Of a stretch of DNA of 31,243 bases, positions 2,565-25,314 are shown piece after piece. Under the pieces are notes generated by a model that did no database searches, was not told where the DNA came from, and was given only the letters and a program-made list of their open reading frames with translations. A program made the translations under genes and the position numbers. This stretch comes from a virus. How positions within the stretch are numbered: position 1 is the stretch's first letter; the number at the start of each line of letters is the position of its first letter. The stretch spans positions 1 through 31,243 of the IMG/VR virus record IMGVR_UViG_3300010160_002754; one strand, written 5' to 3'.

Positions 2565-2572
2565 GCTAAATA
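2565..2572 (+). promoter_or_regulatory. T4-type late promoter box GCTAAATA
   Basis: GCTAAATA matches the core (TAAATA) of the T4 late promoter TATAAATA. Initiation 6 nt after the box would give a start near 2578 and a 19-nt leader before the ATG at 2597. It opens the structural-gene run on the plus strand, as expected for a late promoter, and sits back to back with the minus-strand sigma70-like promoter. Confidence 0.55.
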
Positions 2573-4741: not shown

Positions 4742-4746
4742 TTACC

Positions 4747-4754
4747 GGTAAATA
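4747..4754 (+). promoter_or_regulatory. T4-type late promoter box GGTAAATA, ATG at +1
   Basis: GGTAAATA ends exactly 6 nt before the ATG at 4760, so by T4 spacing transcription would start at the A of the start codon. The same octamer is found on the minus strand in front of iscU. It lies just after the stop of the large structural gene. Confidence 0.45.
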
Positions 4755-4759
4755 TTGAT

Positions 4760-6277: not shown

Positions 6278-6288
6278 AGGAGAATACT

Positions 6289-6483: not shown

Positions 6484-6495
6484 GACTAAGATAAT

Positions 6496-8147: not shown

Positions 8148-10154
8148 ATGTTCGATAGAATACATCAAATACCCACAGAAGAAGTAGCCCAAATTAAATG
8201 GTTGGGCAATGATCTATATTACGACCTACAACTATATGAGTTAGGATCAGGCCATAAAGAGTTCTATGTAGTAAATCCAAATAATGATTATCCCGAACAA
8301 TGGCGACTTGATCTTAAGTATTATGTAGAAGAAGTACCGACTACTAGAAAATGCATTGTAATAACACACAACAATGATTGGATAGTTAAAATATTTAAAG
8401 ATGGGTGGTACCCATATCACGGATATGAGTCTGTTGAAATAGTTAAAACTGAACTAGCATGGACACGTAATCCAGATATTGATAAACTAATAACCTACGA
8501 AGATGATCCGTTTGGCTCGTTTAATCCCAGCAAGTGGGATAGGGATTATAAACTAGTTTGGTACATGGACGAAAGATTTAATCCCTTAGAAGATAAGGTA
8601 TGGGCGTTTAGTTGTCAGCCAATAGGCAAAGAGATACTTGGCACAAAGGATATGGGATATGTTGTACCCGATGTGGCTGTACAGTTTAATGATCATTTGC
8701 CTGACCTAGGCGTTGATGCTAATGATTGTTGCCCTGCATTCTATGACCTAGCACATGAATGTGCCTACGAACTAGATCCCGTACACCAAACTAACAATAA
8801 ACGTCTATGGGTCGTTAAGTTTACACCTATGTGGCGCAAGCCCAAAGAATGGAAATGGCTAGGAGTAGTTACTCCGGAGTTTACTATTGTCTTAAATCCA
8901 GAATTACCAAAGTTAGAATATGATTTAGAATATCTAATACCTTGGCATGACTTTGCATTTGAACACGTTTGGATGTTAGACAGAAGTCATTTAAAAGAAG
9001 GCGAACCCGATATATGGGCATTCACAATACAAGTATCTGATGAACTAGAAGGCAGTAAGATAATAGATTATATTAGTCCAACTGTTGAAGTAACATACAA
9101 TCCAGACTTGCCCAAACTACATTATAATTTAGAATATACCATTCCGTGGCATGACCTAGGCTATGATCATGTTTGGATGCTTGATGACAAGCATTTACAA
9201 AACGGTGAAGAACCAATATGGGCATTCAAAGCCAGTTCAACTGCTGAACCTGCTGGTAGTAAAGTTATAGGAAAGGTAAGTCCTGTGGTCAGTATAACCT
9301 ATAACGAAGACCTTCCTAAACTAGACTATAAAGATGAATACATTGTACCTTGGCACGACCTTGGCTATGATCATATTTGGTATCTGTCTACAAGTACTGC
9401 CAGCGATAAAGTGTGGGCAGTTCGTGCATCTATCTGCGACGAACCTGTTGGAGAAAAAGAAATCGGTACAGTAATACCTTTGTTTGCAAACAAGTTAGAT
9501 GTTGTATTCATTTCCTATAACGAACCTAACGCAGATGTAAACTGGCAACGTGTATTAGAAAAAGCTCCTTGGGCTAAACGTGTACACGGAGTCAAAGGTA
9601 TTTTCAATGCACACAAGGCCGCGGCCAAATTAGCAAAAACTGATATGTTCTTTGTTGTAGACGGCGATGCTTGGCTAGTGGATGAATGGGAATTTAATTT
9701 CCAGCCCGGTATATTTGACAGAGACTGTGCTTATGTTTGGAGCAGTACAAATCCTGTAAATGACTTGACTTATCAGAATGGTGGTGTTAAACTGTTTAGT
9801 AAGAGTATTCTAATGCGTAAGAAGAAGTGGACTACCCTTGATATGTTTACTGGTATAATGCCAAAGATAAAAACTGAAAACGCAATCAGTTGTATTACTA
9901 CATTTAATGTAGATGCATTTTCAACATGGCGTAGTGCATTTAGAGAATCTGTAAAATTGTACACAACAAATCAAATGTCTAAACTGACATCATGGCTTGA
10001 ATCCGATGTTGGACAACCATTTGGTTCCTATGCAGTGTCGGGAGCCCAATGTGGTACACAATTTGCCAAAGATAATATTAACGATCAATCAACGCTGTTA
10101 AAGATCAACGACTACGATTGGTTAGAACAACAATTTAAAAATATAAATGAGTGA
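8148..10154 (+). CDS. repeat-containing GT-A-type glycosyltransferase-like protein
   Basis: The product is 668 aa. The C-terminal part starts with the strand LDVVFISYNEPNADVNW (450-466) and has the GT-A pattern AKLAKTDMFFVVDGDAWLVD, in which DGD (505-507) would be the metal/nucleotide-sugar DxD motif. In front of it are tandem repeats of exactly 68 residues: PWHD occurs at 265-268, 333-336 and 401-404, each preceded by N-x-x-LPKLxYxxEY and followed by HVWMLD and later IWAF. Two more diverged copies can be traced at about 126-180 and 181-249. Repeats of this kind may bind carbohydrate or protein; I do not know their family. The stop overlaps the next start by 8 nt, making it the first gene of the radical SAM/glycan operon. 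Confidence 0.7.
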   Translation: MFDRIHQIPTEEVAQIKWLGNDLYYDLQLYELGSGHKEFYVVNPNNDYPEQWRLDLKYYVEEVPTTRKCIVITHNNDWIVKIFKDGWYPYHGYESVEIVKTELAWTRNPDIDKLITYEDDPFGSFNPSKWDRDYKLVWYMDERFNPLEDKVWAFSCQPIGKEILGTKDMGYVVPDVAVQFNDHLPDLGVDANDCCPAFYDLAHECAYELDPVHQTNNKRLWVVKFTPMWRKPKEWKWLGVVTPEFTIVLNPELPKLEYDLEYLIPWHDFAFEHVWMLDRSHLKEGEPDIWAFTIQVSDELEGSKIIDYISPTVEVTYNPDLPKLHYNLEYTIPWHDLGYDHVWMLDDKHLQNGEEPIWAFKASSTAEPAGSKVIGKVSPVVSITYNEDLPKLDYKDEYIVPWHDLGYDHIWYLSTSTASDKVWAVRASICDEPVGEKEIGTVIPLFANKLDVVFISYNEPNADVNWQRVLEKAPWAKRVHGVKGIFNAHKAAAKLAKTDMFFVVDGDAWLVDEWEFNFQPGIFDRDCAYVWSSTNPVNDLTYQNGGVKLFSKSILMRKKKWTTLDMFTGIMPKIKTENAISCITTFNVDAFSTWRSAFRESVKLYTTNQMSKLTSWLESDVGQPFGSYAVSGAQCGTQFAKDNINDQSTLLKINDYDWLEQQFKNINE

Positions 10155-11583
10155 CGACAAAACAAACATCCGTGGCAATGAAATACTCACAGTCAAGGGC
10201 AAGAATGCTACCAAGTATTTTGTTGATACACAGGAAATTTACGCAAAGTTAAATCAAGTAAGCCCTAGCTTCTGTTTGGCCAAATGGTTTAATGTAAGTA
10301 TTCACATACCTACGGGACAGACACATAGTTGCTATCATCCTAGCAGTCATCATATTCCCCTAAAAGAAATTAAGATAGATGTTAGTGCATTACACAATAC
10401 CAGCTACAAAAAAGAACAACGTGCATTAATGCTCAAAGGTGATAGGCCCAGCGAGTGTCACTTCTGTTGGGAAATAGAAGACAGCGGTAATCAACTCAGC
10501 GATCGTGCTTACCGTAGCAAAGATGTTTGGGAAGAAGGCATTATCAAAGAAGCCATTGATTTGGGTGCCACGGGCAATGCCAGTCCTAGGTATGTTGAAG
10601 TAAATTTTAACCAAGCCTGTAATCTCAAATGTAGATATTGCAGTCCACACCTGAGCACAGAATGGATGAAGGAAATTGAGCGCAATGGCGCATACATATT
10701 AACTGATCGTTGGCACAATGATCTAAGCTGGATGACTGATAATAATATGTGGCCTAACAACAGTCCTGACAATCCTTACTTGTTGGCCTTTTGGGAGTGG
10801 TTTCCTAAAGTGTATCCTACACTGAAAACATTCCGTATGACTGGTGGTGAGCCACTAATGGATAAAAGTACGTTTAAGGTATTTGACTATGTTAAACAAA
10901 ACCCTAGCCAACAGTTACATTTGAGCATTACCAGTAACTGTTGTCCGCCAGGCAACCAATGGGCCAAGTTCATGACCAGCTTGGAAGAACTGACTAATCC
11001 AGGGTCCATTGATCACTTTATGTTATTCTGTAGTTTGGATAGTTGGGGACCGCAGGCTGAATACATTCGCACAGGCCTGCACTTTGATACACTATACAAA
11101 AACATCAAAGAGTTTTTAGTCAAAGGCAATGACAAACATAGCATGTCTTTTATCTGTACATTCAATTTGTTGAGCTATCCTGGTTGGATGGAATACATCA
11201 AGAATATTCTTAAACTTAGACAAGAGTTTAATACAACACGACAGCTAATTTGGTTTGATGTTCCACAGCTACATTATCCAGAATGGCTCAATCCAAAGTT
11301 AATGCCGGAGATGGTTACTGTATTAGAAGATAGTATCAAGTTCATGGAAGATAACAAGGAGACCATGGAAACAGCATTTAAAGGATTCAAAGACTATGAG
11401 ATCAGTAAAGTGCAACGACTTGTTGACTGGATCAAGAGTCCTGTTGAATTTGATAGAGACGCGGCCATACGAAACCTTCTAGCATTTATCGAAGAAGGTG
11501 ATCGTAGAAACCAAACTAATTTTTTAGAAACTTTCCCAGAGTTAAATACATTCTGGACACAATGTAAGGACACACATGGCTGA
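10147..11583 (+). CDS. radical SAM protein with N-terminal auxiliary cysteine module (A)
   Basis: This 478-aa protein holds the radical SAM motif C158-x3-C162-x2-C165 (ACNLKCRYCSP), which binds the [4Fe-4S] cluster that cleaves S-adenosylmethionine, and a GGEP motif at 233-236 contacting SAM. Ahead of the core is a cysteine module (C43, C62, C104, C107; pattern FCxxKW, HSCYHP, ECHFCW) that looks like a SPASM/twitch-type auxiliary cluster site moved to the N-terminus. Enzymes with twitch or SPASM modules modify peptides or sugars by radical chemistry. The substrate is unknown here. It shares the whole layout, including the LHNTxxKKEQR segment, with the next gene, so the two are tandem duplicates. 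Overlaps of 8 nt on both sides indicate coupling. Confidence 0.88.
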   Translation: MSDDKTNIRGNEILTVKGKNATKYFVDTQEIYAKLNQVSPSFCLAKWFNVSIHIPTGQTHSCYHPSSHHIPLKEIKIDVSALHNTSYKKEQRALMLKGDRPSECHFCWEIEDSGNQLSDRAYRSKDVWEEGIIKEAIDLGATGNASPRYVEVNFNQACNLKCRYCSPHLSTEWMKEIERNGAYILTDRWHNDLSWMTDNNMWPNNSPDNPYLLAFWEWFPKVYPTLKTFRMTGGEPLMDKSTFKVFDYVKQNPSQQLHLSITSNCCPPGNQWAKFMTSLEELTNPGSIDHFMLFCSLDSWGPQAEYIRTGLHFDTLYKNIKEFLVKGNDKHSMSFICTFNLLSYPGWMEYIKNILKLRQEFNTTRQLIWFDVPQLHYPEWLNPKLMPEMVTVLEDSIKFMEDNKETMETAFKGFKDYEISKVQRLVDWIKSPVEFDRDAAIRNLLAFIEEGDRRNQTNFLETFPELNTFWTQCKDTHG

Positions 11584-12946
11584 TGATCATAGAGTACAAT
11601 TTGTAAAAAACGTTAGAGATAGATTAAACGCAGTAAGTCCTAGCTTCTGCACACAAAAATGGTTACACCAAACCCTATATTTGCACACAGGTGATAATCA
11701 CAGTTGTTATCATCCAAGGCCACATCATATTGGTCTAGATGAGATTGCGGCTGATCCTAGCGCATTGCATAATACAAAATGGAAAAAAGAACAACGTAAA
11801 AAGATGCTAGAAGGCGAGCGGCCGGACGAGTGTTACTACTGTTGGAACATTGAAGACCTTGAAGGCGATCACATCAGTGATCGCATGATTCACAGTAGCA
11901 GTGATTACTCTGAACCTATTATTGAAAAACTTGCAGAGCTTCCTTGGGATAGAAACATCAATCCTAAGTACTTGGAAGTTAGTTTCGGTAATAACTGTAA
12001 TTTTCGCTGTGGCTATTGCTGTCCACAGGCTAGCACACAATGGGTCAATGAGATTAAAGAATACGGTAATTATGATCTAACCTATAATCAATATGGGATT
12101 GAGTTTTTAGACAGCGGCACATATTATACTGCTAAAGAAGAAAACCCATACATCAATGCGTTTTGGAAATGGTGGCCTAGTCTTAAGGAGGATCTGCATA
12201 CATTACGCATCACTGGTGGCGAGCCATTGATGAATCCTGCGGCCATGCACTTCTTTGATTTGCTAGAAGACGAGCCCGCCCCTAATTTAGAGATTACACT
12301 AAACAGCAATCTAGGTGTTGCTTATGGTAAGATTGATAGACTGTTGGCTCGTATTAAAAGCCTGCTAGATCAAAAGAAAATCCGCAAGTTTAGTTTCTTT
12401 ACTAGTATCGATAGTTGGGGTGAACAAGCAGAATATATGCGTACAGGACTACAATGCAGTCACTGGGAACGCAATGCTAAAGCTGTTATGGACACGGGTG
12501 CTACAGTTAATCTAATGTGTACATTCAACATTCTCTGCGTTACTAATTTCCAACAGCTATTGGAAAAAGTAATTGAGTGGCGCAAGGAACGTGGAATGAA
12601 GTGTGTGGCATTTGACACGCCTTACTTAAAAGAACCACCACACTGGATGATTAAGATTTTAACACCAGACTTTATTCCATACATGGATAATACTCTAAAG
12701 TTCATTCAAGACAACCCAGAATGGTTCACTGGTGTAGAATATGAAAAATTCAAACGTGTTACTAACTTTATGAAAGAACACGACATCAGTGAAGATAAGA
12801 TTCGTGCAGGTCGTCGTGATTTCTACGTGTTCTTTACTGAAAACGACAAGCGTACTGGCACTGATTTATTAAAGACGTTTCCTGAATATGCTGAGTTCTA
12901 TGAACTATGTAAGAGTATATACGAAGAATACGATGAAGAAGTTTAA
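11576..12946 (+). CDS. radical SAM protein with N-terminal auxiliary cysteine module (B)
   Basis: The 456-aa product is a paralogue of the preceding protein. The radical SAM cysteines are C141, C145 and C148 (NCNFRCGYCCP), with GGEP at 214-217. The N-terminal module is C25, C44, C86 and C89, in the same SFCTQKW, HSCYHP and ECYYCW contexts. The C-terminal third is charged and helical (for example DKRTGTDLLKTFPEYAEF) and matches the equivalent part of protein A (NQTNFLETFPELNTF), which argues for a retained common substrate or partner. Adjacent duplicate enzymes could act as a pair or on successive positions. The gene overlaps its neighbours by 8 nt upstream and 14 nt downstream. Confidence 0.87.
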   Translation: MADDHRVQFVKNVRDRLNAVSPSFCTQKWLHQTLYLHTGDNHSCYHPRPHHIGLDEIAADPSALHNTKWKKEQRKKMLEGERPDECYYCWNIEDLEGDHISDRMIHSSSDYSEPIIEKLAELPWDRNINPKYLEVSFGNNCNFRCGYCCPQASTQWVNEIKEYGNYDLTYNQYGIEFLDSGTYYTAKEENPYINAFWKWWPSLKEDLHTLRITGGEPLMNPAAMHFFDLLEDEPAPNLEITLNSNLGVAYGKIDRLLARIKSLLDQKKIRKFSFFTSIDSWGEQAEYMRTGLQCSHWERNAKAVMDTGATVNLMCTFNILCVTNFQQLLEKVIEWRKERGMKCVAFDTPYLKEPPHWMIKILTPDFIPYMDNTLKFIQDNPEWFTGVEYEKFKRVTNFMKEHDISEDKIRAGRRDFYVFFTENDKRTGTDLLKTFPEYAEFYELCKSIYEEYDEEV

Positions 12947-13703
12947 CAGATTCTTTGCCTTTGGCTGTAGCTATACTCAATACGTTTGGCCGACTTGGGC
13001 AGATATTATAGGCTATTCATATAATAACAGTTATTATAACTATGGAGTTGCAGGCGCAGGAAATATATACATTTTTAATATGCTTATGCAAGCAGACCAA
13101 ATGCATAAAATTACCAAAGACGATTTAGTAATCATTCAATGGTCTAGCATATTAAGAGAAGATAGGTATATTGATAACAAATGGATTACCAAAGGTGGCA
13201 TAGTTAACTATTATCCTAAAGATTACATAGAAAAGTATTTTGACATGCGCGGCTACTTTATTAGAGATATGGCAATGATCAAAGCCGCTAAGTCGTTGTT
13301 AGAAAAAATAGGATGCGAATTTCATTTTATATCAATGTGTGGAATAGGAACAGCTAATGTAATTGATGATGTACACTTTAAACCAGTTGAAAAAGAACTT
13401 GATGTAATAGACCTGTATAAAGATGTGTTAGACATTATACAACCTAGTTTTTATTCTGTGTTAGGTGTATACGCTAATCGTCCTTTAACTTTGAAAGACG
13501 GAGTGGTCTTACACGATGCACATAGGATGCCATCAGAACATTTAGAATACATTAAACAAGTATTGCCTGAATTTTTTCCAAAAGATACTGAGTTTGTTAA
13601 AGATGCAGACCTTCAATTAATCGAGGCGCTTTCTAAAAACAGCGAACATGTAAAATATCCTTGGAGAGGGATTAATAGAGGAATTAGATATAAAACATTA
13701 TGA
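12933..13703 (+). CDS. SGNH/GDSL-type hydrolase-like protein
   Basis: I start it at the ATG at 12933 (MKKFNRFFAFGCSYTQY), giving 256 aa. The longer frame from 12888 adds 15 residues inside the upstream gene. Block I is FAFGCSYT with nucleophile S13 (GCS in place of GDS), block II/III is NYGVAGAGN (36-44) with the oxyanion-hole Gly and Asn, and block V is LHDAHRMPSEH (193-203), where D195 and H197 or H203 would complete the triad. SGNH enzymes deacylate or acyl-transfer on carbohydrates, lipids or proteins; here an O-acetyl ester of the glycan is a reasonable guess. It overlaps the previous gene by 14 nt and the next by 4 (ATGA). Confidence 0.78.
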   Translation: MKKFNRFFAFGCSYTQYVWPTWADIIGYSYNNSYYNYGVAGAGNIYIFNMLMQADQMHKITKDDLVIIQWSSILREDRYIDNKWITKGGIVNYYPKDYIEKYFDMRGYFIRDMAMIKAAKSLLEKIGCEFHFISMCGIGTANVIDDVHFKPVEKELDVIDLYKDVLDIIQPSFYSVLGVYANRPLTLKDGVVLHDAHRMPSEHLEYIKQVLPEFFPKDTEFVKDADLQLIEALSKNSEHVKYPWRGINRGIRYKTL

Positions 13704-14929
13704 TAACTGAACAAAATGAACACTCATGGTGTGTCAATGCTTTCCATGGCATGAGCGCCAACAATGATGGTAGCACTAAGATGTGCTGTATGATATCCAA
13801 AGAGTATCGCAGAATGGGCTCTACTGATTATTCAATTGGTAAAGTTTCTATACAAAATAATTTTGACAATCCTTTGGCTGTTTCAATTAGAGAAAATCTT
13901 GACAATGGTATACGTGATGAAGCCTGCACTAACTGTTGGCAAGAAGAAGAAGGTGGCCGTAAGAGCAAACGTATGCGAGATAACGAAAGATATCTACATG
14001 AGTTACAGTGGCAAGAGCGCACTCCCTATTCAGGCCTTGCCAAGTTGGAATTAAACCTAGGAAACACCTGCAATATCAAATGTCGTACTTGCCATCCTAC
14101 TATTAGCAGTCAGTGGATGAAGGAAGCCTACGATTTAGATCATAGCACATCAAAGACCTACAAAGAATACTCTGTGATGATGAAACCATTTCATCAACAG
14201 TATGATGACGAGAGTCCTTTTTGGGACGACCTAATTGATAACCTTAGCACTATTAAACAGTTTGACTTTTATGGTGGCGAGCCTTTCCTAAGTAAGAAGA
14301 TGTGGGAAGTATTAAAGATATGTGTTGATCGTGGATATGCCAAAGACATTGAACTACATTATAATACCAACGGAACAACTTGGCCGGATGCTACAGAACT
14401 TTGGAAGAACTTTAAAAGTGTTAATCTAAGTTTTAGCATAGATGGTACAGAAGAACAGTTTGAATATATGCGCCACTTGGCTATTTGGAAGGAAGTGCGT
14501 GTCAACATGGGTAAAGCATTAGACTTTAAAAAAGCCTATGGCAACCTAAGTCTAAGTTGGTGTGTTACTCTTAGCACAGCTAACATTTATTATCTTCCAG
14601 AGATTATTGATGCATACTATAAAGAGTTCACAGACTTTGGGCTATATCTTAATCTAGTACACGGACCAGAACACTATAACATAAGTTATATTCCAAAGGG
14701 AATCAAAGAAAAAGTTATTGCAAAGTTAGAAACTATCAACAAGGATTACACTCATGCTTGGTATCAGCTACCTGGCATCATTGGATTTATACAAAATGGT
14801 ACTCCTAATATAAAGATATGGAAAACCTTCTTAGAAACAATTAAAAAACATGATGTTTATAGAGAGCAAGACTTCTTTAAAACATTTAAAGAATACGGAG
14901 AACTAATTAATGACAGCATTTTGGAATAA
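13700..14929 (+). CDS. radical SAM protein with N-terminal auxiliary cysteine module (C)
   Basis: The product is 409 aa. The core motif is C124-x3-C128-x2-C131 (NTCNIKCRTCHP), with GGEP at 192-195 in FYGGEPFLSKK. Before it stands the cysteine set C11, C29-C30, C76 and C79 (SWCVNAF, STKMCCMI, ACTNCWQ), the same arrangement as in proteins A, B and E. The sequence NLGNTCNIKCRTCHPxISSQW is the form I associate with twitch-domain radical SAM proteins of phages and surface-glycan loci. It is less similar to A and B than they are to each other. ATGA overlap upstream and 20-nt overlap downstream place it firmly in the operon. Confidence 0.87.
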   Translation: MITEQNEHSWCVNAFHGMSANNDGSTKMCCMISKEYRRMGSTDYSIGKVSIQNNFDNPLAVSIRENLDNGIRDEACTNCWQEEEGGRKSKRMRDNERYLHELQWQERTPYSGLAKLELNLGNTCNIKCRTCHPTISSQWMKEAYDLDHSTSKTYKEYSVMMKPFHQQYDDESPFWDDLIDNLSTIKQFDFYGGEPFLSKKMWEVLKICVDRGYAKDIELHYNTNGTTWPDATELWKNFKSVNLSFSIDGTEEQFEYMRHLAIWKEVRVNMGKALDFKKAYGNLSLSWCVTLSTANIYYLPEIIDAYYKEFTDFGLYLNLVHGPEHYNISYIPKGIKEKVIAKLETINKDYTHAWYQLPGIIGFIQNGTPNIKIWKTFLETIKKHDVYREQDFFKTFKEYGELINDSILE

Positions 14930-16169
14930 ACATGAACTAACTCAAATGCACATTGAGCTGACTAACGGCTGTAATGCAGCCTGCCCAATGTGTGTTAGGT
15001 TTCATAACAATAGTCCGTTAACTCGTCCTGACTTAGAAATAGGACAGATTACTATTGATAAGTTTAAGAAATACTTTCCTCCTCATATACTACAAAAGTG
15101 CAATCTAATATTGTTCTGCGGAGTTCACGGAGATCCGTGTGTAGCTAAAGATACATTAGAGATCTGCGAATACATAATGGAGTCATCTAAAAAGACTGCG
15201 GTTCGTATGAACACTAATGGCGGCATGCGTAAACCCGACTGGTGGAAAAAGCTAGGAGAACTTTTTTCTAAAAGAAATAAAGAATCCGGATTTAACTATT
15301 GGCAAGTGACATTTAGTATTGATGGACTAGAAGATACTAATCACATATATAGACGTAATGTTAATTGGAAAAACTTAAAAGATAACTTTACAGCATTTAT
15401 ATCTGCGGGAGGACTTGCCAATTGGGATTATTTGATTTTTAAACATAACGAGCATCAAATAGAAGAAGCAAAATATCTTGCAGAACAATTTGGTTTCCAC
15501 GAGTTTGTACCTAAGAAAGCGTTAGGTGTAGACAATGGTAGAGAACTAACACCTATGGGTGTATTGAATAAAGAAGGTAAGTTAGAGTATGTTATTGAAG
15601 CCCCTACAGATCCAAAAAACAGAAACTTAGAAAATCCACAAGGCAGTTCTTTGGACACGTTAACTTACTATCCGTTTGATCCTGCAGATTACCGCAAGGC
15701 CAAAGAAACTAAATCAACATTAAACTACTTTCAAGAACAAGTTAAAACAGTTTACGAAGATAGGATATTAAATGAAGATAACTCTAAGTACGATAAATGC
15801 GAGATTAAATGTAAATCTAAAATGGGCAAGTGGGGCAAGGAAATATTTGTAGACCAGTCTGGTAGAGTAATGCCTTGCTGTTATATTGGTACGCACCTTA
15901 ATGGAGTGTACACAGATACTAGAACTCTACAGCTTCATAAACATATGAATGACTATGACTGGGACCATTTTAGTTTGGAGAAACATACTTTAGAAGAAAT
16001 ATTAGATGCAGAGCACCTGGACAGAGTATTTGCTGATTCATGGACTAAAGATTCAGTAGCTAACGGAAAGTTATCATACTGTGCAGATACTTGTGGACAG
16101 GTATCAAGTATTGATAAGATATTCTCACATGAATTAAACGACGGAAACTCTACATTTAAGAAAGTTTGA
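14910..16169 (+). CDS. radical SAM/SPASM-type enzyme with C-terminal cysteines (D)
   Basis: In this 419-aa protein the radical SAM motif lies close to the N-terminus: C21-x3-C25-x2-C28 (NGCNAACPMC). The usual GGEP is replaced by GVHGDP (71-76). The C-terminal part has the classical SPASM order, with C297, C301, the pair C323-C324 in GRVMPCCYIGTHLNG, then C391 and C395, suggesting one or two auxiliary clusters. The Gly-x-Val-x-Pro-Cys-Cys strand pattern is typical of SPASM proteins that act on peptides or on sugar-nucleotides. It differs in layout from its four neighbours, so it probably catalyses a different step. It overlaps the upstream gene by 20 nt and the next by 4 nt. Confidence 0.85.
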   Translation: MTAFWNKHELTQMHIELTNGCNAACPMCVRFHNNSPLTRPDLEIGQITIDKFKKYFPPHILQKCNLILFCGVHGDPCVAKDTLEICEYIMESSKKTAVRMNTNGGMRKPDWWKKLGELFSKRNKESGFNYWQVTFSIDGLEDTNHIYRRNVNWKNLKDNFTAFISAGGLANWDYLIFKHNEHQIEEAKYLAEQFGFHEFVPKKALGVDNGRELTPMGVLNKEGKLEYVIEAPTDPKNRNLENPQGSSLDTLTYYPFDPADYRKAKETKSTLNYFQEQVKTVYEDRILNEDNSKYDKCEIKCKSKMGKWGKEIFVDQSGRVMPCCYIGTHLNGVYTDTRTLQLHKHMNDYDWDHFSLEKHTLEEILDAEHLDRVFADSWTKDSVANGKLSYCADTCGQVSSIDKIFSHELNDGNSTFKKV

Positions 16170-17956
16170 AAATGAAGAAGGTAGAATTAATAACAGTAGT
16201 ATATGCAGGCGATTTAGCTAACCTGTACTATCATGCCAAATCATTAAAGAAAAACTGGATAGACTATAACCCTGCATATTTTAAATGGACAATTGTTGTA
16301 GAGGACAGTATTCTAGAAGGACAAACTAGATTAGAACATTACGTAGATAATAATTATACCATCGACTGGTGTAAAGAGCATATAGTTCCTATTATGATAG
16401 GATGGGAAGTTAGCGTTGTATCATCTCCTTTAACTGCGGCAGTTGATGGTTGGCATAGGCAAATGCTTTGCAAATTGTGGGCCGCGTCAAACTCTACGCA
16501 AGATTGGGTATTAATTTTAGATGCTAAAAATTTCTTAATGACTCCAACTAAGTTTGATGATTTTTTTCAAGATGATAAGTTACTAGTATGTATTCATTCA
16601 GAACGACCTTTACAGAAACCGCATGGTACTGATCATATTAATGCTTGTAAATTATTTGGTATTGATATAAACAATACTGTTGAAACATGGTCTACGACTC
16701 CTTTTATTTGGAAAACACAATTAGTTAGAGACTGCCTAACAGTATTAAATTATAAGAATTATGATGTATTTGCAGAAAGCCAGCCTATTACTGAAATAGC
16801 ATTGTACTGGGTATACGCACAAAATAAATTAGATTGGTTTCCTTGGTCGGGCACCACAGTTGGACAGTACGGTGGCTGTGCAGATGAATTCTGTCTGTCT
16901 CCACAAGACATGTTACAAGAAATAATGAACTTGTCTGTTAATAATTACAAGTTCCTTACATTGCACAGGTTTCATGCAACACCGCAGTCTACAACTATGG
17001 TAAGTGGATTTTTAAAATCTCGTAACATTATTGATAACAAAGACATTGCATTTTATAAAAAAACATTTTTAGAAAATATAGATACAATGCGTCCTTCAGT
17101 AACTGAATTTTTAAAACCTAAATGGGATCCAAAGGAAATAACCCGCAACGGCAGAACTATTAAATTTGATAGAATAGTTGCCTATGGTTGCAGTTTTACA
17201 GCTGGAACAGAACTTGCAGAATTTTTAGTTTCTCCCTCAACTCCAATAGAAGAAATTGATAAAATAAAACGTCGAGATTTTGCAGGCCTACCTAAAAAGT
17301 TCCCACATTACACAGGAGTGTTTAATGATGACATTCAAGCTATCGGGCGTAATTTATCCTGGGCAAAACAGATAGCCAACAATCTTAAAGTAGGATTTGT
17401 GAATAAAGCATTTCCAGGCCATGGTGTGCAGAATATGGTATATGGAATAGAAAAAGATTTAAAAAATGGGTTTTTAACTGAAACTGATTTAATTGTTGTT
17501 GGAATTACATCTGCAGATCGGTGGATGTTCTTTGAAAAAGATGGTAACGCTCAACGTGTGTTGTTTTCATACAGTCATATGTGGCCATCAAAGCAACTGC
17601 ATGAAGATTTTGTAACTTACATTGCCAACGATTATTTTAATTCATACCAATGGTACAATTCTATTAAATACCTAGATATGTTATCAGATAGGATAGGTGG
17701 AAGAATTTTACAATGCTATTTGCATTCAACGTTTAATGAACTTAAGAAAAACAAATGGAATAATTTAAAAAGTGAATTTGTTGATCAATTTGATGAAATG
17801 CAAACATTTGAATCCATAGTTGAACCTAATTTTGCACTGGCTACCGGAATAGATTGGGACAACGAAACACATGGAGGATGGCATCCTAAGATACAATTCC
17901 ATACAAAATATGCAAATCATATTACAAACATACTAACAGGAAAAAATAATGAATGA
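16166..17956 (+). CDS. glycosyltransferase-like / SGNH hydrolase fusion
   Basis: The 596-aa product joins two enzymes. Residues 1 to about 325 look like a GT-A-type glycosyltransferase: opening strand VELITVVYAGDLANL, a central QDWVLILDAKNF (112-123) in the DxD position with only one Asp, and YWVYAQNKLDW in the acceptor half. Residues about 333-596 are an SGNH hydrolase: FDRIVAYGCSFTAGTEL with nucleophile S343, NKAFPGHGVQNM (413-424) for block III, and GGWHPKIQFHTKYANHI near the C-terminus carrying the catalytic His. A fusion implies that one residue is added and an acyl group transferred or removed on the same acceptor. Start alternatives MKMKK differ by two codons. Coupled by 4-nt and 8-nt overlaps. 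Confidence 0.75.
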   Translation: MKMKKVELITVVYAGDLANLYYHAKSLKKNWIDYNPAYFKWTIVVEDSILEGQTRLEHYVDNNYTIDWCKEHIVPIMIGWEVSVVSSPLTAAVDGWHRQMLCKLWAASNSTQDWVLILDAKNFLMTPTKFDDFFQDDKLLVCIHSERPLQKPHGTDHINACKLFGIDINNTVETWSTTPFIWKTQLVRDCLTVLNYKNYDVFAESQPITEIALYWVYAQNKLDWFPWSGTTVGQYGGCADEFCLSPQDMLQEIMNLSVNNYKFLTLHRFHATPQSTTMVSGFLKSRNIIDNKDIAFYKKTFLENIDTMRPSVTEFLKPKWDPKEITRNGRTIKFDRIVAYGCSFTAGTELAEFLVSPSTPIEEIDKIKRRDFAGLPKKFPHYTGVFNDDIQAIGRNLSWAKQIANNLKVGFVNKAFPGHGVQNMVYGIEKDLKNGFLTETDLIVVGITSADRWMFFEKDGNAQRVLFSYSHMWPSKQLHEDFVTYIANDYFNSYQWYNSIKYLDMLSDRIGGRILQCYLHSTFNELKKNKWNNLKSEFVDQFDEMQTFESIVEPNFALATGIDWDNETHGGWHPKIQFHTKYANHITNILTGKNNE

Positions 17957-19145
17957 AACTACATTTTGTGCTTACCCTTTTAACACGCTGTTTCTGGGTG
18001 CAGATGGTGATATTAAACCATGCTGTTCTTCTGGCGCACGATTAGGCAACATTAATGAACTAACAGTGGATGAGATTGTACATGGAAAAATGCTCACTGA
18101 GATTCGAGAATCTATTGTTAAGGGTGAGTGGCATCCAAGTTGTGGCCAATGCGAGAAACTAGAAAAGTATGGCGCACGAACAGAGCGCACAGGCGTATTG
18201 CACAAGTTTGAAGAGTTTAAAGACGCAACTAAAGATACATTTAAACTGCAAAAGTTAGATCTAAGATGGAGTAACACTTGTAATCTATCCTGTAATTACT
18301 GCTATGAATATTTTAGTTCTAAGTGGGCCACTCTTAAAGGTATTAAGGTTAACGCAAACAAAACATCAGCAGAAGATTCTATGTTTAAATTAATAGAACG
18401 ATCAACTGGTACTATTGAAGAATTGTATTTGTTGGGAGGAGAACCTTTGCTACAGAAGCAGAATAATCATTTACTAGATTTGTTACATGATAAAAAATAT
18501 TACATATTAACTAACTTGTCTGTAGATGTTCCTGGCAACCCAATTGCTAAAAAACTATTAGCAAATAAAAATGTAGCCTGGGGTGTTAGCTTTGAAAACA
18601 TAGGAGATAAGTTTGAATACGTAAGACATGGTGCTGATTGGAAAACACTAACTGCTAACCTACAATACATTAAAGATACTAATCCAAAAGAAATAAATGC
18701 ACATCCTTTATATTGTGCATATTCTGCGTTTGATCTGTGTGAATATTATGATTTTTTAATGAGCAGTGATATTTTCACTCAGGCATACTGGTGCGTGATA
18801 CAAAATATTCCTGGATTAAATACATTTACATTACCAGATGGATTGAAAATTAAAGCTCTTGACGAACTTGATCGATGCATATCAAAATTTAAAAATACTC
18901 GCTTTGACATGTCGGCCCTTGAAGAAATTAGAAAGAACCTGTATAATTCATTAATATCTAGTAGGCCAGATGAAGCTCCAGAAGGCATTATTGATTCAAA
19001 TTACAGAGATCGAACTGCATTTTTAATGTGGATTGATACTGTTGAAATGCAATACCTAACTGATAAAAAACATTCCTTTGAAGATTTATGGCCAGCCCTT
19101 TATTCAGAATTAATTAATGAAAAACCCCGTCGAATCCCAGCTTAA
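17949..19145 (+). CDS. radical SAM protein with N-terminal auxiliary cysteine module (E)
   Basis: The 398-aa protein has C111-x3-C115-x2-C118 (NTCNLSCNYCYEYF) and GGEP at 163-166. The N-terminal cysteine module is especially clear and SPASM-like: C7 in FCAYPFNTLFLGADG, C25-C26 in DIKPCCSSGARLGNI and C65-x2-C68 in SCGQCEK. The IKPCCSSGxxLGNI pattern is normally the C-terminal auxiliary-cluster region of SPASM enzymes, so the module order is inverted. The remaining C-terminal half carries no further cysteine cluster that I can see. It overlaps the GT-SGNH fusion by 8 nt and the B12-type radical SAM gene by 29 nt. Confidence 0.87.
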   Translation: MNETTFCAYPFNTLFLGADGDIKPCCSSGARLGNINELTVDEIVHGKMLTEIRESIVKGEWHPSCGQCEKLEKYGARTERTGVLHKFEEFKDATKDTFKLQKLDLRWSNTCNLSCNYCYEYFSSKWATLKGIKVNANKTSAEDSMFKLIERSTGTIEELYLLGGEPLLQKQNNHLLDLLHDKKYYILTNLSVDVPGNPIAKKLLANKNVAWGVSFENIGDKFEYVRHGADWKTLTANLQYIKDTNPKEINAHPLYCAYSAFDLCEYYDFLMSSDIFTQAYWCVIQNIPGLNTFTLPDGLKIKALDELDRCISKFKNTRFDMSALEEIRKNLYNSLISSRPDEAPEGIIDSNYRDRTAFLMWIDTVEMQYLTDKKHSFEDLWPALYSELINEKPRRIPA

Positions 19146-21189
19146 AAAGAATCACGGTTGGAATAAGATTTATACTTTAAAAAAAATAAATCCTAAACCG
19201 ATTAAAGAGGAAGACTATGATGCAAAACACCAAAAGGTTTTAGATGCATTAAAGCCATATGCACGAGCTAAACCTCAGAGTAATTTAACTGAAGTTAAGA
19301 TTGACTATGTTACTCGTAAATCGAGCATAGCATTCTTAGTATTGCCCGAATGGGCAATTAACTTCCCTCCATACAATGTAGCAAGATTAGCCGCAGTTAC
19401 AAAAACTGCTGGCTATAAAACTTATGCATTTGATTTGAATGCCAAAGCTTCTAAGGATTATAAGAACTGGGAAGGCTTGGACTTTAACCCGTGGGATGGT
19501 GCCCGCGAATGGAAATGGATAGGTGATTCTTATCACACTGACTTACATCAGTTTGTTAAACCGTTCATGGAATCATACATTGAAAAGTTAGTAGAGATAA
19601 ATCCAACAGTGATAGGATTTACTTTATATTACTGCAATGAAGAGCCTACTAAATGGATGGCACGGGAATTAAAAAAACGATTACCTAATACTATTATTAT
19701 GGTAGGAGGTCCTCAATGCCATCAAAGTTATTGGACACCTATCAGTGAATATGATTATATCATTAGGGGCGAGGGCGAAGAACTATTGCTAGAAGCCTTA
19801 GAAGAAATTGAATCCGGGGTCAGGCGCACTGAACAGTATTGGTTAAAACAAGAAGAAGGACAACGTTTGGACTTAGATAAGTTACCTGCTCCGGACTATA
19901 GTCATTTTGACTTCAATGATTACTCTATGCCAAATGGAGTTAATGCAGAGATTAGTCGAGGATGTACAGCAAAGTGCGTGTTCTGTAGTGAAACACATTT
20001 TTGGAAATATAGAGGACGTGCGGCTCGTAGTATCCTTGATGAAGTTGCAGAACTTTATTATAATAAGGGCGTTGATGTTATATGGTTCTTGGACAGTTTA
20101 GTTAATGGCAACTTAAATGAACTACGAGCATTCTGCAAAGGCGTTATTGCCCGTGAGATGAAGATTCACTGGACAGGCTATGCGAGGCATGATAAGCGTA
20201 TGGATCTAGAGTATTATAAAGATCTAGCAAACAGCGGTTGCCTAAGTCTCAGCTACGGAATCGAGTCTGGATCTAATAAAGTATTAGAAGATATGGATAA
20301 AGGTGTAACTGTTGACGAGATTGAACAAAATCTCAAAGACGGCGCCAGCGTGGGCGTTGATGCATTTAGCAACTGGATTGTGGGATTTCCAACAGAAAAA
20401 CCACAAGACTTCTATGAGACTATGATGCTGATATGGCGTAACAGAAATTATCTAATGCAGATATCAGCAGGTCATGGCTTTACTATTCCTCCTGATACAA
20501 TCATAGCACAGGATGTAGACAAGTACGGTATTGCTAAAAGTTTCTTTGAAGGCAATTGGATTACTACTAAGTATGACAATAGCAAGGTACATCGATTAAT
20601 TAGATTAAAAACGTTCAATATACTTTTGAATAATTTAATTAACAAGAATAATAACGACTTTAGTAATAGGCATAGCATAGAAAGTCATTACAAGTTAAAT
20701 GTAATCAACACCGCTCCACTTGAGATTGAATTTGAAAATTTTGATTTTAATATTTGCAAACCCAACATAAGTTCTTTTGCAGATTCATTGATCAATGAGG
20801 TATGGCCCTTGCTACGTTTATTCTGGAGAACTCGCGGTGCTTATAATATTGATCTAGTATTTGATGCAGACAAGGACATGAATGAGTTTGGCAACAGAAT
20901 GGGTTGTAATTTTAATGCTAGGATATTGTTTAATATCAATGACACAGGAGAATGGACTGCTGATTTAGATTTTAAATTTGTTCAGTCAGATAATCCTTGG
21001 ACATATCAAGAATATTCTAGAGCAGATTCTACCGCGGCTAAACGGGCACGTACTCTTGCATTACCGGGAAGTAAGGGAGAAACTAACTTTACCTTTCAGT
21101 TATATGACGAAGAATTAGCAAGGAACGATCAACGTAGAAAAATGAATTTAAGTTTTAACTATCAGGATATAATTAAAGGAAATTGGTAA
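19117..21189 (+). CDS. B12-binding-type radical SAM enzyme
   Basis: The 690-aa product has the class B architecture. Residues about 70-235 form a Rossmann-like cobalamin-binding-type domain: SIAFLVLPEWAINFPPYNVA, then INPTVIGFTLYY, NTIIMVGGPQCHQSY and YDYIIRGEGEELL. The radical SAM core follows, with C283-x3-C287-x2-C290 in SRGCTAKCVFCSETHFW. The DxHxxG motif that supplies the lower axial His in many B12 enzymes is absent (FDLNAKASKDY stands there), as in the His-less subset. These proteins methylate unactivated carbons or rearrange rings; the substrate is unknown. The C-terminal 200 residues are unassigned. The first ATG lies 29 nt inside the previous gene, and no nearby later ATG fits better. 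Confidence 0.83.
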   Translation: MKNPVESQLKKNHGWNKIYTLKKINPKPIKEEDYDAKHQKVLDALKPYARAKPQSNLTEVKIDYVTRKSSIAFLVLPEWAINFPPYNVARLAAVTKTAGYKTYAFDLNAKASKDYKNWEGLDFNPWDGAREWKWIGDSYHTDLHQFVKPFMESYIEKLVEINPTVIGFTLYYCNEEPTKWMARELKKRLPNTIIMVGGPQCHQSYWTPISEYDYIIRGEGEELLLEALEEIESGVRRTEQYWLKQEEGQRLDLDKLPAPDYSHFDFNDYSMPNGVNAEISRGCTAKCVFCSETHFWKYRGRAARSILDEVAELYYNKGVDVIWFLDSLVNGNLNELRAFCKGVIAREMKIHWTGYARHDKRMDLEYYKDLANSGCLSLSYGIESGSNKVLEDMDKGVTVDEIEQNLKDGASVGVDAFSNWIVGFPTEKPQDFYETMMLIWRNRNYLMQISAGHGFTIPPDTIIAQDVDKYGIAKSFFEGNWITTKYDNSKVHRLIRLKTFNILLNNLINKNNNDFSNRHSIESHYKLNVINTAPLEIEFENFDFNICKPNISSFADSLINEVWPLLRLFWRTRGAYNIDLVFDADKDMNEFGNRMGCNFNARILFNINDTGEWTADLDFKFVQSDNPWTYQEYSRADSTAAKRARTLALPGSKGETNFTFQLYDEELARNDQRRKMNLSFNYQDIIKGNW

Positions 21190-21190
21190 T

Positions 21191-21940
21191 ATGAAGATGT
21201 ATGCATTTGGTGATAGTTTTGTTGTAGGCGATCAGGATGATTTTTATAACGACCCAAATACTAGCAAGACTAATCCGCCTACTCATGGTATGCTATACAA
21301 TGAAAGATTAGAATACTTAAAGTACAATGTTAGTTTTGTATCTATAATTGCAAAACATTTAAATCTAGAGCTAGTTAACTTTGCAGTCCGAGGTACTGGC
21401 AACTATCCTCAATTAGATAGACTTATAATGAATTTGCTGTCTGGCAATATTAAATCTGGCGACCTAGTATTGTTTGGAATAACAACGTTGATACGAGATA
21501 GAATACAATTAATTGATTTTAACAAAAGTTCTTCTCCAGGTTACGGACCTTGTCTAATTGATCGAGAATTATTGACCGAATATAACATGGATAAAATTTG
21601 TAAAATAGATTTATTGTGTATACTATCAATACTGGAAAGATTAAGTAAAACTTACAATATAAAAATTATAACATTTAATTTGTTTACAAATATATTAACA
21701 GGTATGCCCGAAGAGGATAAAAAACCATATAAAATTGAAAACAATGTAGATATAACCAACGAAGGTAATACATTAATTGATATACTACATGATACATGGG
21801 GACAAGTTACTGATCATCCATATCATGACAGATTAGAAATTATTCCAGGATACGAGCATTTTTATACCAATAAAAAACATCCTAGCATAGACGGACATAA
21901 AAAAATAGCTACCTGGTGGCTAGATAATGTTAAATTTTAA
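21191..21940 (+). CDS. SGNH/GDSL hydrolase-like protein
   Basis: The 249-aa protein starts MKMYAFGDSFVVGD, a canonical GDS block with nucleophile S9. NFAVRGTGN (63-71) provides the oxyanion-hole Gly and Asn, and NKKHPSIDGHKKIA (227-240) is block V, with H230 as catalytic base and Asn in place of the usual Asp three residues before. The start follows the upstream stop by one base (TAATATG). This is the third SGNH domain in the operon and the only one with a strict GDS. A role in esterification or de-esterification of the glycan is likely but unproven. No signal peptide is visible, so it should act in the cytoplasm. Confidence 0.82.
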   Translation: MKMYAFGDSFVVGDQDDFYNDPNTSKTNPPTHGMLYNERLEYLKYNVSFVSIIAKHLNLELVNFAVRGTGNYPQLDRLIMNLLSGNIKSGDLVLFGITTLIRDRIQLIDFNKSSSPGYGPCLIDRELLTEYNMDKICKIDLLCILSILERLSKTYNIKIITFNLFTNILTGMPEEDKKPYKIENNVDITNEGNTLIDILHDTWGQVTDHPYHDRLEIIPGYEHFYTNKKHPSIDGHKKIATWWLDNVKF

Positions 21941-21951
21941 AATAATAGGTA

Positions 21952-22947
21952 ATGCTTACAATAAACACAAACTTAGCACGAGGTATGGGTACTATAATAG
22001 GTTTCCTATCTTTGTTACAACATTATGGAAAGGAAGTAACATTTGAAACTGATGCTCAAGGTTTTATAATCTTAATAAAACTAATTCGAATATATGGATT
22101 AAAAAATATATATCCTGTTGTACAAGAACCAATTGAAAATAGAGATTGGAACAGATTAGGCGACCTAGCAAAGATGTTTAGTCCATACCTATCTCCTACT
22201 AACGTCAACCTGTTTGATAAAGTAATACCCAATCCAACAATTCAACATCATAGAAAACCTTGTATTGGATTTTCGTGTTTCACTAATTCAAATAAGGCGT
22301 TCACTGACAAAGATTGGCTAGAAGGTGATCGCGGATTCCCTAGAAATAGACAATATTCTGTTGATGAATGGGCTAAGATATTTAAATTGATAAAACTTGC
22401 AGGATATGATATTATAACTCTTGATTCTATGCGTATTGATATTGAAACTAAGATGTTATTACTTCGAGAACAATGCGAAGCGGTAATAGGATACGAAGGT
22501 GGGATTGGTCATATTTGCCATACATTAAACATTCCATTTATAATGTTACCTTGGAAAAATTCAGTAGTTTACAATCCTAACATATATATACCTAAAGACG
22601 AACAAGACTGGCACCATTTCCTTCATTTAGATAAAAGAACTTATTTTTTAGAATCTCTCTCTGAATTATTAAGCTGGAACACTAATAAGTTACATGATAT
22701 TATTGATTCATTAAAAGAAGAAAAAGGCAATAACAAAATTCTCAAAGAATCACACATACTAATGAGTCGAGACATGGAAAGATTTATAATAAATGGTAAA
22801 GCACGCCGATTAGTACAAAAAGCACAGTTTAGAGAATTAGAGGAAAGTATCATTAGAATGATTAGTACTGAATCAGGAACGCCTCTTTGCTTTGGCGGAT
22901 TTAATCCACCAACCATTCATTTCGTAGATCATATAGATGAGGTATAA
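21952..22947 (+). CDS. GT-B (GT9-like) glycosyltransferase-like protein
   Basis: The 331-aa product begins MLTINTNLARGMGTIIGFLS, where GMGT takes the place of the GLGD loop of GT9 enzymes. A second Rossmann half has WAKIFKLIKLAGYDIITLDS and CEAVIGYEGGIGHICHTLNI (175-194), the latter equivalent to the nucleotide-sugar site that usually reads like 'DLVIGxDSGxxHLAxAL', then PFIMLPW. This suggests a GT-B glycosyltransferase related in fold to the heptosyltransferases, though the catalytic residues are not clear enough to name a donor. The C-terminus (FGGFNPPTIHFVDHIDEV) is unusual and may be a separate acceptor-binding tail. It starts 11 nt after the SGNH gene, in the same operon. Confidence 0.6.
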   Translation: MLTINTNLARGMGTIIGFLSLLQHYGKEVTFETDAQGFIILIKLIRIYGLKNIYPVVQEPIENRDWNRLGDLAKMFSPYLSPTNVNLFDKVIPNPTIQHHRKPCIGFSCFTNSNKAFTDKDWLEGDRGFPRNRQYSVDEWAKIFKLIKLAGYDIITLDSMRIDIETKMLLLREQCEAVIGYEGGIGHICHTLNIPFIMLPWKNSVVYNPNIYIPKDEQDWHHFLHLDKRTYFLESLSELLSWNTNKLHDIIDSLKEEKGNNKILKESHILMSRDMERFIINGKARRLVQKAQFRELEESIIRMISTESGTPLCFGGFNPPTIHFVDHIDEV

Positions 22948-22955
22948 GTATTAAC

Positions 22956-23708
22956 ATGAAAATAATTGTAGTATCAGGCGGGTTTGATCCTGTTCACAGC
23001 GGTCATGTGTTGTTAATGAATTCTGCTAAAACTTACGGTAATTATCTTATTGTAGGAGTTAACAGTGATGCCTGGCTTGAGCGTAAGAAAGGCCGCGCAT
23101 TTATGCCATACGCCGAACGTAGGGCTGTGGTAAGTAACATGAAAGCTGTAGATGAAGTCATTGAGTTTGACGATGGTGATGGATCTGCTTGCGATCTATT
23201 AGAGAAAGTAAAACAGAATTATCCAGGCCATCAGATTATATTTGCCAACGGCGGTGACCGTACGGCAAACAACATTCCGGAAATGTCTGTAACGAATGTT
23301 ACTTTTGAATTTGGTGTTGGCGGTGAAGATAAAGCAAACAGCAGTAGTTGGATACTCCAAGAATGGAAAGCACCAAAGACTGCACGGGTCTGGGGGTATT
23401 ATAGAGTCTTACACGATGTTAACGGAACTAAGGTCAAAGAATTAACAGTTGAGCCTGGACAAAAATTAAGTATGCAACGACATGCACACAGGGCAGAATA
23501 TTGGCTAGTGTCAGAAGGAAAATGTATTGTTAATTCTATGATGCCAAACGGATATGCGTTACCATTAACTGAATTAGCAACACACGAAACCTATAACGTA
23601 CATAAGGGAGATTGGCATCAACTTACTAATCCCTATGATGTTCCTTGCAGGATTGTTGAAATACAGTACGGGTCGGCCTGTGATGAAGAAGATATTGAAC
23701 GACGATAA
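22956..23708 (+). CDS. cytidylyltransferase-like / mannose-isomerase-type cupin fusion
   Basis: The product is 250 aa with two domains. Residues 1 to about 130 are a nucleotidyltransferase of the GCT/HldE-C type: GGFDPVHSGHVLLM contains the H14-S-G-H17 signature that binds the NTP phosphates, and VGVNSDAWLERKKGR follows as in RfaE/HldE. Residues about 136-250 form a cupin like the C-terminal phosphomannose-isomerase domain of ManC: VKELTVEPGQKLSMQRHAHR, then AEYWLVSEGKCIV, VHKGDWHQLTNP and IVEIQYGSACDEEDI. H152-type residues of the RHAHRAE strand are the expected metal ligands. It probably activates a sugar phosphate for the glycan pathway. Only 8 nt separate it from the previous gene, and it is the last gene before the terminator. 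Confidence 0.85.
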   Translation: MKIIVVSGGFDPVHSGHVLLMNSAKTYGNYLIVGVNSDAWLERKKGRAFMPYAERRAVVSNMKAVDEVIEFDDGDGSACDLLEKVKQNYPGHQIIFANGGDRTANNIPEMSVTNVTFEFGVGGEDKANSSSWILQEWKAPKTARVWGYYRVLHDVNGTKVKELTVEPGQKLSMQRHAHRAEYWLVSEGKCIVNSMMPNGYALPLTELATHETYNVHKGDWHQLTNPYDVPCRIVEIQYGSACDEEDIERR

Positions 23709-24059
23709 CTAGCCGTAACTTTTTATTTCTTTAATAGGATCGTTGAGTTTATCTGCGATCCTATTTTTTATTACATATCGTTCACTGTTGATATTTCTAA
23801 TTTCTATAGCTCTGCGTCCAACTTCTTCTAAACTGTATTGAAGCTCAACAGTGTATTTTTTAAAGTCATCCTCCATGCTCCATATCCTTCTGTGGATATC
23901 AGTTAGTTGAATTAATTCTTCTTTGATATTATCTATACCAATTTGCGATAACTGATCTGTATAAAAATTAAGTTCTGGTTGATTATTGCCTAATTTTTCA
24001 AATTTTAACTTTGCAATGCAGTACCGATCCACTAATTCTATAATTGGAAACTTAAACAT
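23709..24059 (-). CDS. DUF6165-like helical protein, second copy
   Basis: The 116-aa product starts MFKFPIIELVDRYCIAKLKF and is predicted all alpha-helical. ELVDRYxIxKLKFEKL, the middle LIQLTDIHRRIWSMEDDF and the basic helix RAIEIRNINSERYVIKNRI match, in order, the corresponding parts of the 1353-1727 protein (ELVDKITILEIKLDRI, LKEINAELWDIENF, ARNVYLKNDQRASLKRAI), so both belong to one family. Sequence identity is low, so this is an old divergence. Its start overlaps the stop of the methyltransferase by 8 nt. Its stop abuts the stop of the plus-strand operon with no gap, and its last 20 codons contain the terminator of that operon. Confidence 0.7.
   Translation of the reverse strand: MFKFPIIELVDRYCIAKLKFEKLGNNQPELNFYTDQLSQIGIDNIKEELIQLTDIHRRIWSMEDDFKKYTVELQYSLEEVGRRAIEIRNINSERYVIKNRIADKLNDPIKEIKSYG
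23733..23769 (+). terminator. rho-independent terminator ending the plus-strand operon
   Basis: AATAGGATCG (23733-23742) and CGATCCTATT (23756-23765) form a perfect 10-bp stem with a 13-nt loop, and the T run continues to 23769. It stands 25 nt after the stop of the nucleotidyltransferase-cupin gene. The same bases encode part of the C-terminus of the convergent minus-strand gene. There is no T run on the minus-strand side, so it should act in the plus direction only. Confidence 0.85.
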
Positions 24060-25280: not shown

Positions 25281-25307
25281 TGAATTATCAGCCCAGTAAA
25301 TGATAAT
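25280..25307 (+). promoter_or_regulatory. possible sigma70-like promoter for the GT10-like gene
   Basis: TTGAAT (25280-25285) and GATAAT (25302-25307) are 16 nt apart. The start site would fall at about 25314, at the ATG at 25315. The match is partial (4/6 and 5/6) and the whole divergent gap is under 50 bp. Confidence 0.3.
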
Positions 25308-25314
25308 TATATGT

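Follow-up and report, generated by a model that had tools for sequence, protein, structure and literature searches.

The 31,243-base viral DNA fragment analysed here (the window), a linear piece that makes up the whole IMG/VR record IMGVR_UViG_3300010160_002754, carries at 8148-23708 a block of twelve plus-strand genes (A to L) whose ends overlap or nearly do so. We found that this block, comprising six radical S-adenosylmethionine (SAM) enzymes (B, C, E, F, H and I), the glycosyltransferase (GT) A, the SGNH proteins D and J, the DUF6492-SGNH fusion G and genes K and L, belongs to a module conserved in content and order among phages, which is likely to be a glycan-tailoring pathway. Six radical SAM genes among twelve neighbours are no chance event, since about 100 contigs share this set. 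An initial annotation, made from the letters alone, had counted eleven genes, yet its own list sums to the twelve that are present.

Genes of the block, with the evidence for each in brackets:
8148..10154, plus strand: A, predicted beta-repeat stalk (68-residue PWHD repeats) and C-terminal GT-A domain with a DGD motif (predicted structure)
10147..11583, plus strand: B, N-twitch radical SAM protein (NF033640, 304 bits)
11576..12946, plus strand: C, N-twitch radical SAM protein, direct partner of B (NF033640, 299 bits)
12933..13703, plus strand: D, SGNH protein (SGNH residues invariant over the D, G and J families; phage homologues)
13700..14929, plus strand: E, N-twitch radical SAM protein (NF033640, 300 bits)
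14910..16169, plus strand: F, radical SAM protein with C-terminal SPASM-like cysteines (PF04055, phrog_21308)
16166..17956, plus strand: G, DUF6492-SGNH fusion (PF20102, 2.1e-10; SGNH alignment)
17949..19145, plus strand: H, N-twitch/SPASM radical SAM protein (NF033640, 213 bits; PF13186, 7.5e-11, at the N-terminus)
19117..21189, plus strand: I, B12-binding radical SAM protein, class B, ApyD/PhpK/BchE-like (PF02310 and PF04055 above their cut-offs)
21191..21940, plus strand: J, SGNH protein, GDSL-like (PF00657, 0.0014; SGNH alignment)
21952..22947, plus strand: K, possible GT-B protein with a GT9-like GYEGGIGHICH motif (motif alignment only)
22956..23708, plus strand: L, RfaE-like nucleotidyltransferase with a mannose-6-phosphate-isomerase-type cupin (PF01467, 3.7e-13; PF01050, 4.6e-22)

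Scanning IMG/VR with protein B yielded at least 117 relatives, of which 80 were kept, and the scan with protein I yielded 22. The recurrent gene order comprises tail-type genes, an open reading frame (ORF) of 116 amino acids (aa), two ORFs of ~280 aa judged GT8-like by eye, which gave no family match, one or two A-type GTs, B and C, with E, F and G following downstream in varying sets. Of 56 dereplicated loci, 48 have B immediately behind an A-type GT and 43 have it immediately ahead of C; in 60 of 64 clusters every gene has the same orientation, and the genes are tightly packed (median gap -9 nucleotides (nt); 96% of 354 gaps at most 30 nt). The initial annotation had proposed to look for gene-neighbourhood conservation, and had named scattered homologues, never together, as the contrary outcome. 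We found the radical SAM/GT/SGNH module common to about 100 contigs, behind virion-type genes, and in eight large records (56-244 kb) every gene scoring above the cut-off of NF033640 (N_Twi_rSAM, twitch domain-containing radical SAM protein; whole-protein score above 170 bits) falls into one cluster per record. Three related contigs (L072, L073 and L074) hold eight radical SAM homologues each within one stretch of at most 21 kb. The genes of the module, their conservation and their arrangement are thus firm. Furthermore, of nine related records searched for gp23, the three longest encode it (E 1e-98 to 1e-145), and the carriers of the module are therefore probably T4-like phages.

Comparison with a near-twin (L007/L090), whose nucleotide sequence is 85-96% identical over most of the window, revealed which parts turn over. 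G is missing from this position in the near-twin, the breakpoints lying within ~30 nt of the ends of G. The sequence also differs in the part of A that encodes the GT domain, across the J-K region and in the downstream GT-like gene n1, which is replaced; the radical SAM enzymes are 93-99% identical. Across all near-twins with enough downstream sequence, median identity was 46% for GT and SGNH genes versus 75% for radical SAM genes, a trend from about ten non-independent pairs. Constant radical SAM enzymes with swapped GTs is therefore not an absolute rule: it holds for the window and its near-twin, not for all pairs.

Clusters of related content occur in cultured phages. Vibrio phage K566 encodes four NF033640-type radical SAM proteins (two above the cut-off), two GT8 proteins and one GT4-like protein; Pelagibacter phage Mosig carries three radical SAM-like genes next to its tail fibres and VrlC, with genes of sugar and redox functions around them; and Campylobacter phage CP220 carries five radical SAM genes, an amidinotransferase and two GT-A-fold (SSF53448) proteins in one block. 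The CP220 radical SAM proteins are not orthologues of those in the window, as they belong to families other than NF033640. Thus, the partnership of radical SAM enzymes and GTs in large phages seems to have arisen, or to have been re-assembled, more than once.

Among bacteria, C-type radical SAM genes were found in 48 of 192 Bdellovibrionota genomes sampled, in mixed surroundings. One Bdellovibrionales genome (L221) has an A-like GT, a twitch radical SAM protein, another radical SAM protein and an F-like one in a row, so some components of the pathway are present in cells too. In a Bdellovibrio metagenome-assembled genome (MAG), a C-type radical SAM protein fused to a second one (L117, 9974-12478) lies between two flagellin genes; a link to flagellin was rejected, this being the only such locus among 30 loci from the 192 genomes (flanks ~1.5 kb). 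A contig of a Bdellovibrionia MAG (L214/L215; G010 contig C192, ~22-55 kb) encodes 14 NF033640 proteins above the cut-off in 33 kb, along with repeated GT-like and SGNH-like proteins and an amidinotransferase-like gene, a partner that radical SAM genes likewise have in CP220. On a contig of a Candidatus Pelagibacterales-binned MAG, which may be phage or bacterial, a C-type gene (L120, 7196-8617) stands amid GT, SGNH and nucleoside diphosphate (NDP)-sugar genes.

Enzymes encoded in the block

The six radical SAM genes start at 10147, 11576, 13700, 14910, 17949 and 19117. As the initial annotation had stated, the C-x3-C-x2-C motif can be read in each translation, and PF04055 matches all six (E 5.3e-6 to 2.5e-19). 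The motif is kept in 346 of 346 radical SAM homologues counted, and the twitch and SPASM types keep auxiliary cysteines as well; C25, C44, C86, C89, C141, C145 and C148 are invariant in a 21-sequence alignment. B, C, E and H score above the NF033640 cut-off and are members of this family, whereas F, with 43.8 bits, and I, which is not listed, lie outside it. In an 86-sequence tree, in which some rows are long and their placement unsure, B, C, E and H form separate phage clades, several with support of at least 95, and bacterial sisters of B and C belong to the Bdellovibrionota. The four enzymes therefore look like distinct steps; they are not recent copies of one gene, and the tree speaks against a recent tandem duplication.

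Gene I matches PF02310 with 34.6 bits (cut-off 32.1) and PF04055 with 62.3 bits. Its B12-binding domain precedes the radical SAM domain, an order that places it in class B (cobalamin-dependent) and predicts methylation. Its best NCBIfam match is ApyD (113 bits, far under the cut-off), and TIGR03975, PhpK and BchE are also among the nearest. A structural model of C (predicted local distance difference test score, pLDDT, 92) resembles most closely SuiB, SkfB and anSME, then BlsE and viperin.

Protein A gave no match in Pfam, PHROG or PDB-sequence searches. Its predicted structure (pLDDT 88.6) combines a beta-repeat stalk with a GT-A domain, in agreement with the repeat-bearing glycosyltransferase described earlier. 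Nearly all fold matches listed are GT-A proteins, the best being the peptide S-glycosyltransferases ThuS/SunS (E 6e-4), followed by GtrB and polypeptide GalNAc-transferases, with low whole-chain TM-scores; in the DGD motif of A, D507 is invariant and D505 nearly invariant in the alignment, as fits a GT-A enzyme. The folds of A and C belong to very large superfolds and hint only weakly at peptide or protein substrates, and BlsE among the matches of C is a reminder of sugar nucleoside chemistry.

Aligning D, G and J with 15 relatives revealed invariant G341, S343, N413, G418 and H573, with marginal Pfam support. The GT-SGNH fusion of the initial annotation thus corresponds to DUF6492 (PF20102) joined to an SGNH domain in G, and its two further SGNH proteins to D and J; for D, a start at 12933 is more likely than one at 12888. 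The nucleotidyltransferase-cupin L was likewise borne out by its PF01467 and PF01050 matches. The GT-B-like assignment of K stays tentative: a GT9-like motif resemblance speaks for it, and Pfam and PDB-profile searches gave no match.

Neighbouring genes and late-promoter motifs

The co-directional run begins earlier than 8148, at structural-type genes from 2597, and further sugar-related genes lie downstream of the block.

Neighbouring features:
2567..2572, plus strand: TAAATAC late-promoter-like site, 25 nt ahead of the structural gene at 2597
2597-4741, plus strand: He_PIG Ig-like protein (He_PIG, 1.7e-14)
4969-6105, plus strand: Hint-domain protein (Hint, 2.3e-4)
6238-6483, plus strand: small ORF
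6496-8109, plus strand: 537-aa protein
11543..11548, plus strand: GTTAAATAC late-promoter-like site, 28 nt ahead of gene C
24052..25266, minus strand: sugar-C-methyltransferase-type protein, likely partner of the block (Methyltransf_13/23/14)
25300..26451, plus strand: n1, GT-B/fucosyltransferase-like by motif, recurs beside the module (no Pfam match)

Homologues of the gene at 2597 adjoin tail-fibre or tail-pin-like genes in relatives; in one of these (L048) the tail-size ORF matches tail-fibre PHROG 19602 as well as Pseudomonas jumbo phage proteins annotated as baseplate/tail pin or virion structural protein. Because of these tail genes, and of the Ig-like and Hint domains, genes 2597-8109 probably have a virion role. 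The Hint (autoprocessing) protein has a glycine run ahead of the Hint cysteine; it is 93% identical in the near-twin, and none of the remaining loci from the first scan has a homologue. In cultured phages, tblastn gave no match to A, G or the 537-aa protein.

In relatives, the hexamer with the strongest enrichment within 100 nt ahead of genes is TAAATA (197 observed versus 13.6 expected, 14.5-fold), which forms the T4-type late-promoter core. In the window it is rarer than chance (18 observed versus 53.5 expected), and seven of the 18 sites fall within 879 intergenic bases. In relatives it precedes 69% of the block-opening 116-aa ORFs and 66% of the tail-size ORFs, and it lies at most 120 nt upstream of 28% of the C homologues. 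Sigma-70 promoters and terminators were detected at chance level only. Judged by these motifs, the module is probably expressed late.

Several other genes lie near the block. An IscU gene (29919-30296; by reading and PF01592) brings phage-encoded iron-sulfur (Fe-S) assembly near the six Fe-S enzymes, and two IscA/ErpA-type genes were recognised by reading at 28901-29227 and 30351-30674; Fe-S assembly as a general part of the module was rejected, with IscU in just three of ten related records. Two short minus-strand proteins, alike by eye, flank the block, one at each end (1353-1793 and 23709-24059), the second matching DUF6165 in Pfam under its cut-off. The product of 29224-29922 is sulfotransferase-like by its N-terminal motif GEARTGSN and has no PHROG match.

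Proposed pathway and its alternatives

In the glycan-tailoring pathway that we propose, the nucleotidyltransferase-cupin and the C-methyltransferase would supply an unusual activated sugar, several GTs would assemble a short glycan, the SGNH proteins would put on or take off an acyl group, and the chain of radical SAM enzymes would alter unreactive C-H positions, the twitch/SPASM enzymes by oxidation, dehydration, epimerisation or cross-linking and the B12 enzyme by methylation. The initial annotation had suggested radical chemistry decorating a virion or envelope glycan: the conserved radical SAM/GT/SGNH module with sugar-pathway partners directly behind virion-type genes was borne out, and a virion or envelope glycan is a putative target.

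Among 719 module ORFs, 15 have a weak single hydrophobic stretch, and neither a multi-pass protein nor any convincing membrane protein was found. Seroconversion systems such as GtrABC and Oac need integral membrane proteins (flippase, transferase or acyltransferase), and the module is therefore a misfit with this type. The lack of membrane proteins fits cytosolic enzymes that act on virion proteins or on lipid- or nucleotide-linked sugars; together with the late-promoter motifs and the tail linkage, it favours an acceptor in the cytosol, for instance a tail fibre. Our best single reading, plausible yet somewhat short of probable, is a late, soluble cytosolic pathway whose acceptor is a tail-fibre or other virion surface protein. 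As such a protein is assembled in the cytosol, the glycan would mask or diversify the receptor-binding surface. More tentatively, the tail fibres of T4-like phages might bear a glycan to which four to eight radical enzymes, a cobalamin-dependent methylase among them, give its final chemical form and which varies by GT exchange, a radical-tailored and diversifying virion glycocalyx.

Several observations weigh against a virion acceptor or against the pathway as drawn. The cluster of Vibrio phage K566 lies beside pagP, ~25 kb from the tail fibres; bacterial homologues have no consistent neighbourhood; E and F are also replaced between some near-twins, so that the radical SAM enzymes are not all constant; the fold matches are weak and fall within large superfolds; late timing is predicted from a motif, not from transcripts; and the substrate, each reaction, the product and the acceptor are inferred. 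Moreover, the nucleotide-sugar genes suit an envelope glycan equally well. Remodelling of the host envelope, in which the soluble enzymes would act in the cytosol on lipid-linked precursors of O-antigen or capsule that the host exports, and thereby block superinfection or free progeny from debris, ranks close behind the virion acceptor as an explanation, likewise short of probable. It is the published reading of the GTs in the pelagimyophage host recognition cluster (PMC7029224), and it agrees with pagP in K566, with a bacterial homologue (L219) in an O-antigen-exporter-like context, with the polysaccharide-like context of L120 and with the RfaE-like and C-methyltransferase partners; however, the 719 module ORFs offer no convincing membrane protein of the kind that GtrABC/Oac systems have, and late-promoter motifs are poorly timed for exclusion.

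The fold of C (nearest SuiB, SkfB and anSME), the profile of I (nearest the C-methyltransferases ApyD and TIGR03975) and the fold of A (nearest ThuS/SunS) would also suit a pathway like that of ribosomally synthesised and post-translationally modified peptides (RiPPs), in which radical SAM enzymes cross-link, epimerise or methylate a virion protein or ribosomal peptide and GTs glycosylate the same peptide. We consider this improbable: no precursor gene adjoining the enzymes was found in the module gaps, 96% of which are at most 30 nt and so leave little room for one, though a distant precursor is possible; no equivalog cut-off was reached, and the sugar genes would go unexplained. An even lower probability attaches to auxiliary metabolism, in which the radical SAM enzymes boost host cofactor or energy metabolism beside incidental GT neighbours, as in earlier suggestions for phage radical SAM arrays (PMC2853527, PMC5332604). 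Dozens of phages keep these enzymes in a fixed order with GT and SGNH genes, which speaks against it, as do the four twitch paralogues, which match no metabolic equivalog above cut-off. Hypermodification of DNA bases, with radical SAM enzymes and GTs building a modified nucleotide, has in its favour that radical SAM enzymes (QueE-type, 7-deazaguanine) act in some phage DNA-modification pathways. It is the least credible of the readings, since no thymidylate-synthase/hydroxymethylase (PF00303) homologue was found in ten records (eight above 69 kb, all fragments) and the block sits behind tail genes with late-promoter motifs.

The radical SAM arrays of T4-like phages, unexplained since 2010, thus resolve into a conserved, ordered and probably late pathway tied to GTs and tail genes, a link that defines a concrete class of substrates open to testing. 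Radical-modified glycans on virions, if they exist, would represent a new layer in how phages and hosts recognise each other in lakes and oceans, and their enzymes would be an unusual resource for modifying sugars; Vibrio phages K566/K567, Campylobacter phage CP220 and Pelagibacter phage Mosig are cultured relatives or analogues.

Relation to known systems

The module was partly known before: reports of radical SAM arrays in T4-like phages date from 2010, 2017 and 2020. In the literature searched we found no definition of the twitch radical SAM/GT/SGNH core, of its late-promoter link or of its turnover as one conserved pathway. Timms et al. (2010) described the wealth of radical SAM genes in CP220/CPt10 as highly unusual and proposed a role in metabolism (PMC2853527). 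Theirs resembles the block in the window as an exchangeable central module of radical SAM genes (five in their case) in T4-like phages, and CP220 has GT-A-fold proteins; it differs in radical SAM proteins outside NF033640, in its amidinotransferase and in having no SGNH protein annotated. A T4-like TARA genome with 12 radical SAM genes and an Fe-S carrier gene was read in 2017 as Fe-S metabolism (PMC5332604). It shares with the window the radical SAM array and an IscA-type gene, of which the window has two in addition to IscU, whereas no glycan pathway was proposed there. Virus-encoded GTs decorate capsid and tail proteins in mycobacteriophages (Freeman et al. 2023, cited in PMC12619734), a likeness in the phage GTs; the account of them there describes no radical SAM chemistry.

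Another close parallel is the host recognition cluster of pelagimyophages and cyanomyophages, a hypervariable block of T4-like phages with tail fibres, GTs and radical SAM cassettes, which in pelagimyophages lies between VrlC and the neck gene gp14; the 2020 study proposed O-chain change for its GTs and mentioned the radical SAM genes in passing (PMC7029224). The module described here likewise combines highly variable content with tail genes and GTs. In contrast to this cluster, it has a fixed A-B-C(-E-F-G) core, four orthologue groups of twitch radical SAM enzymes, SGNH proteins and late-promoter motifs.

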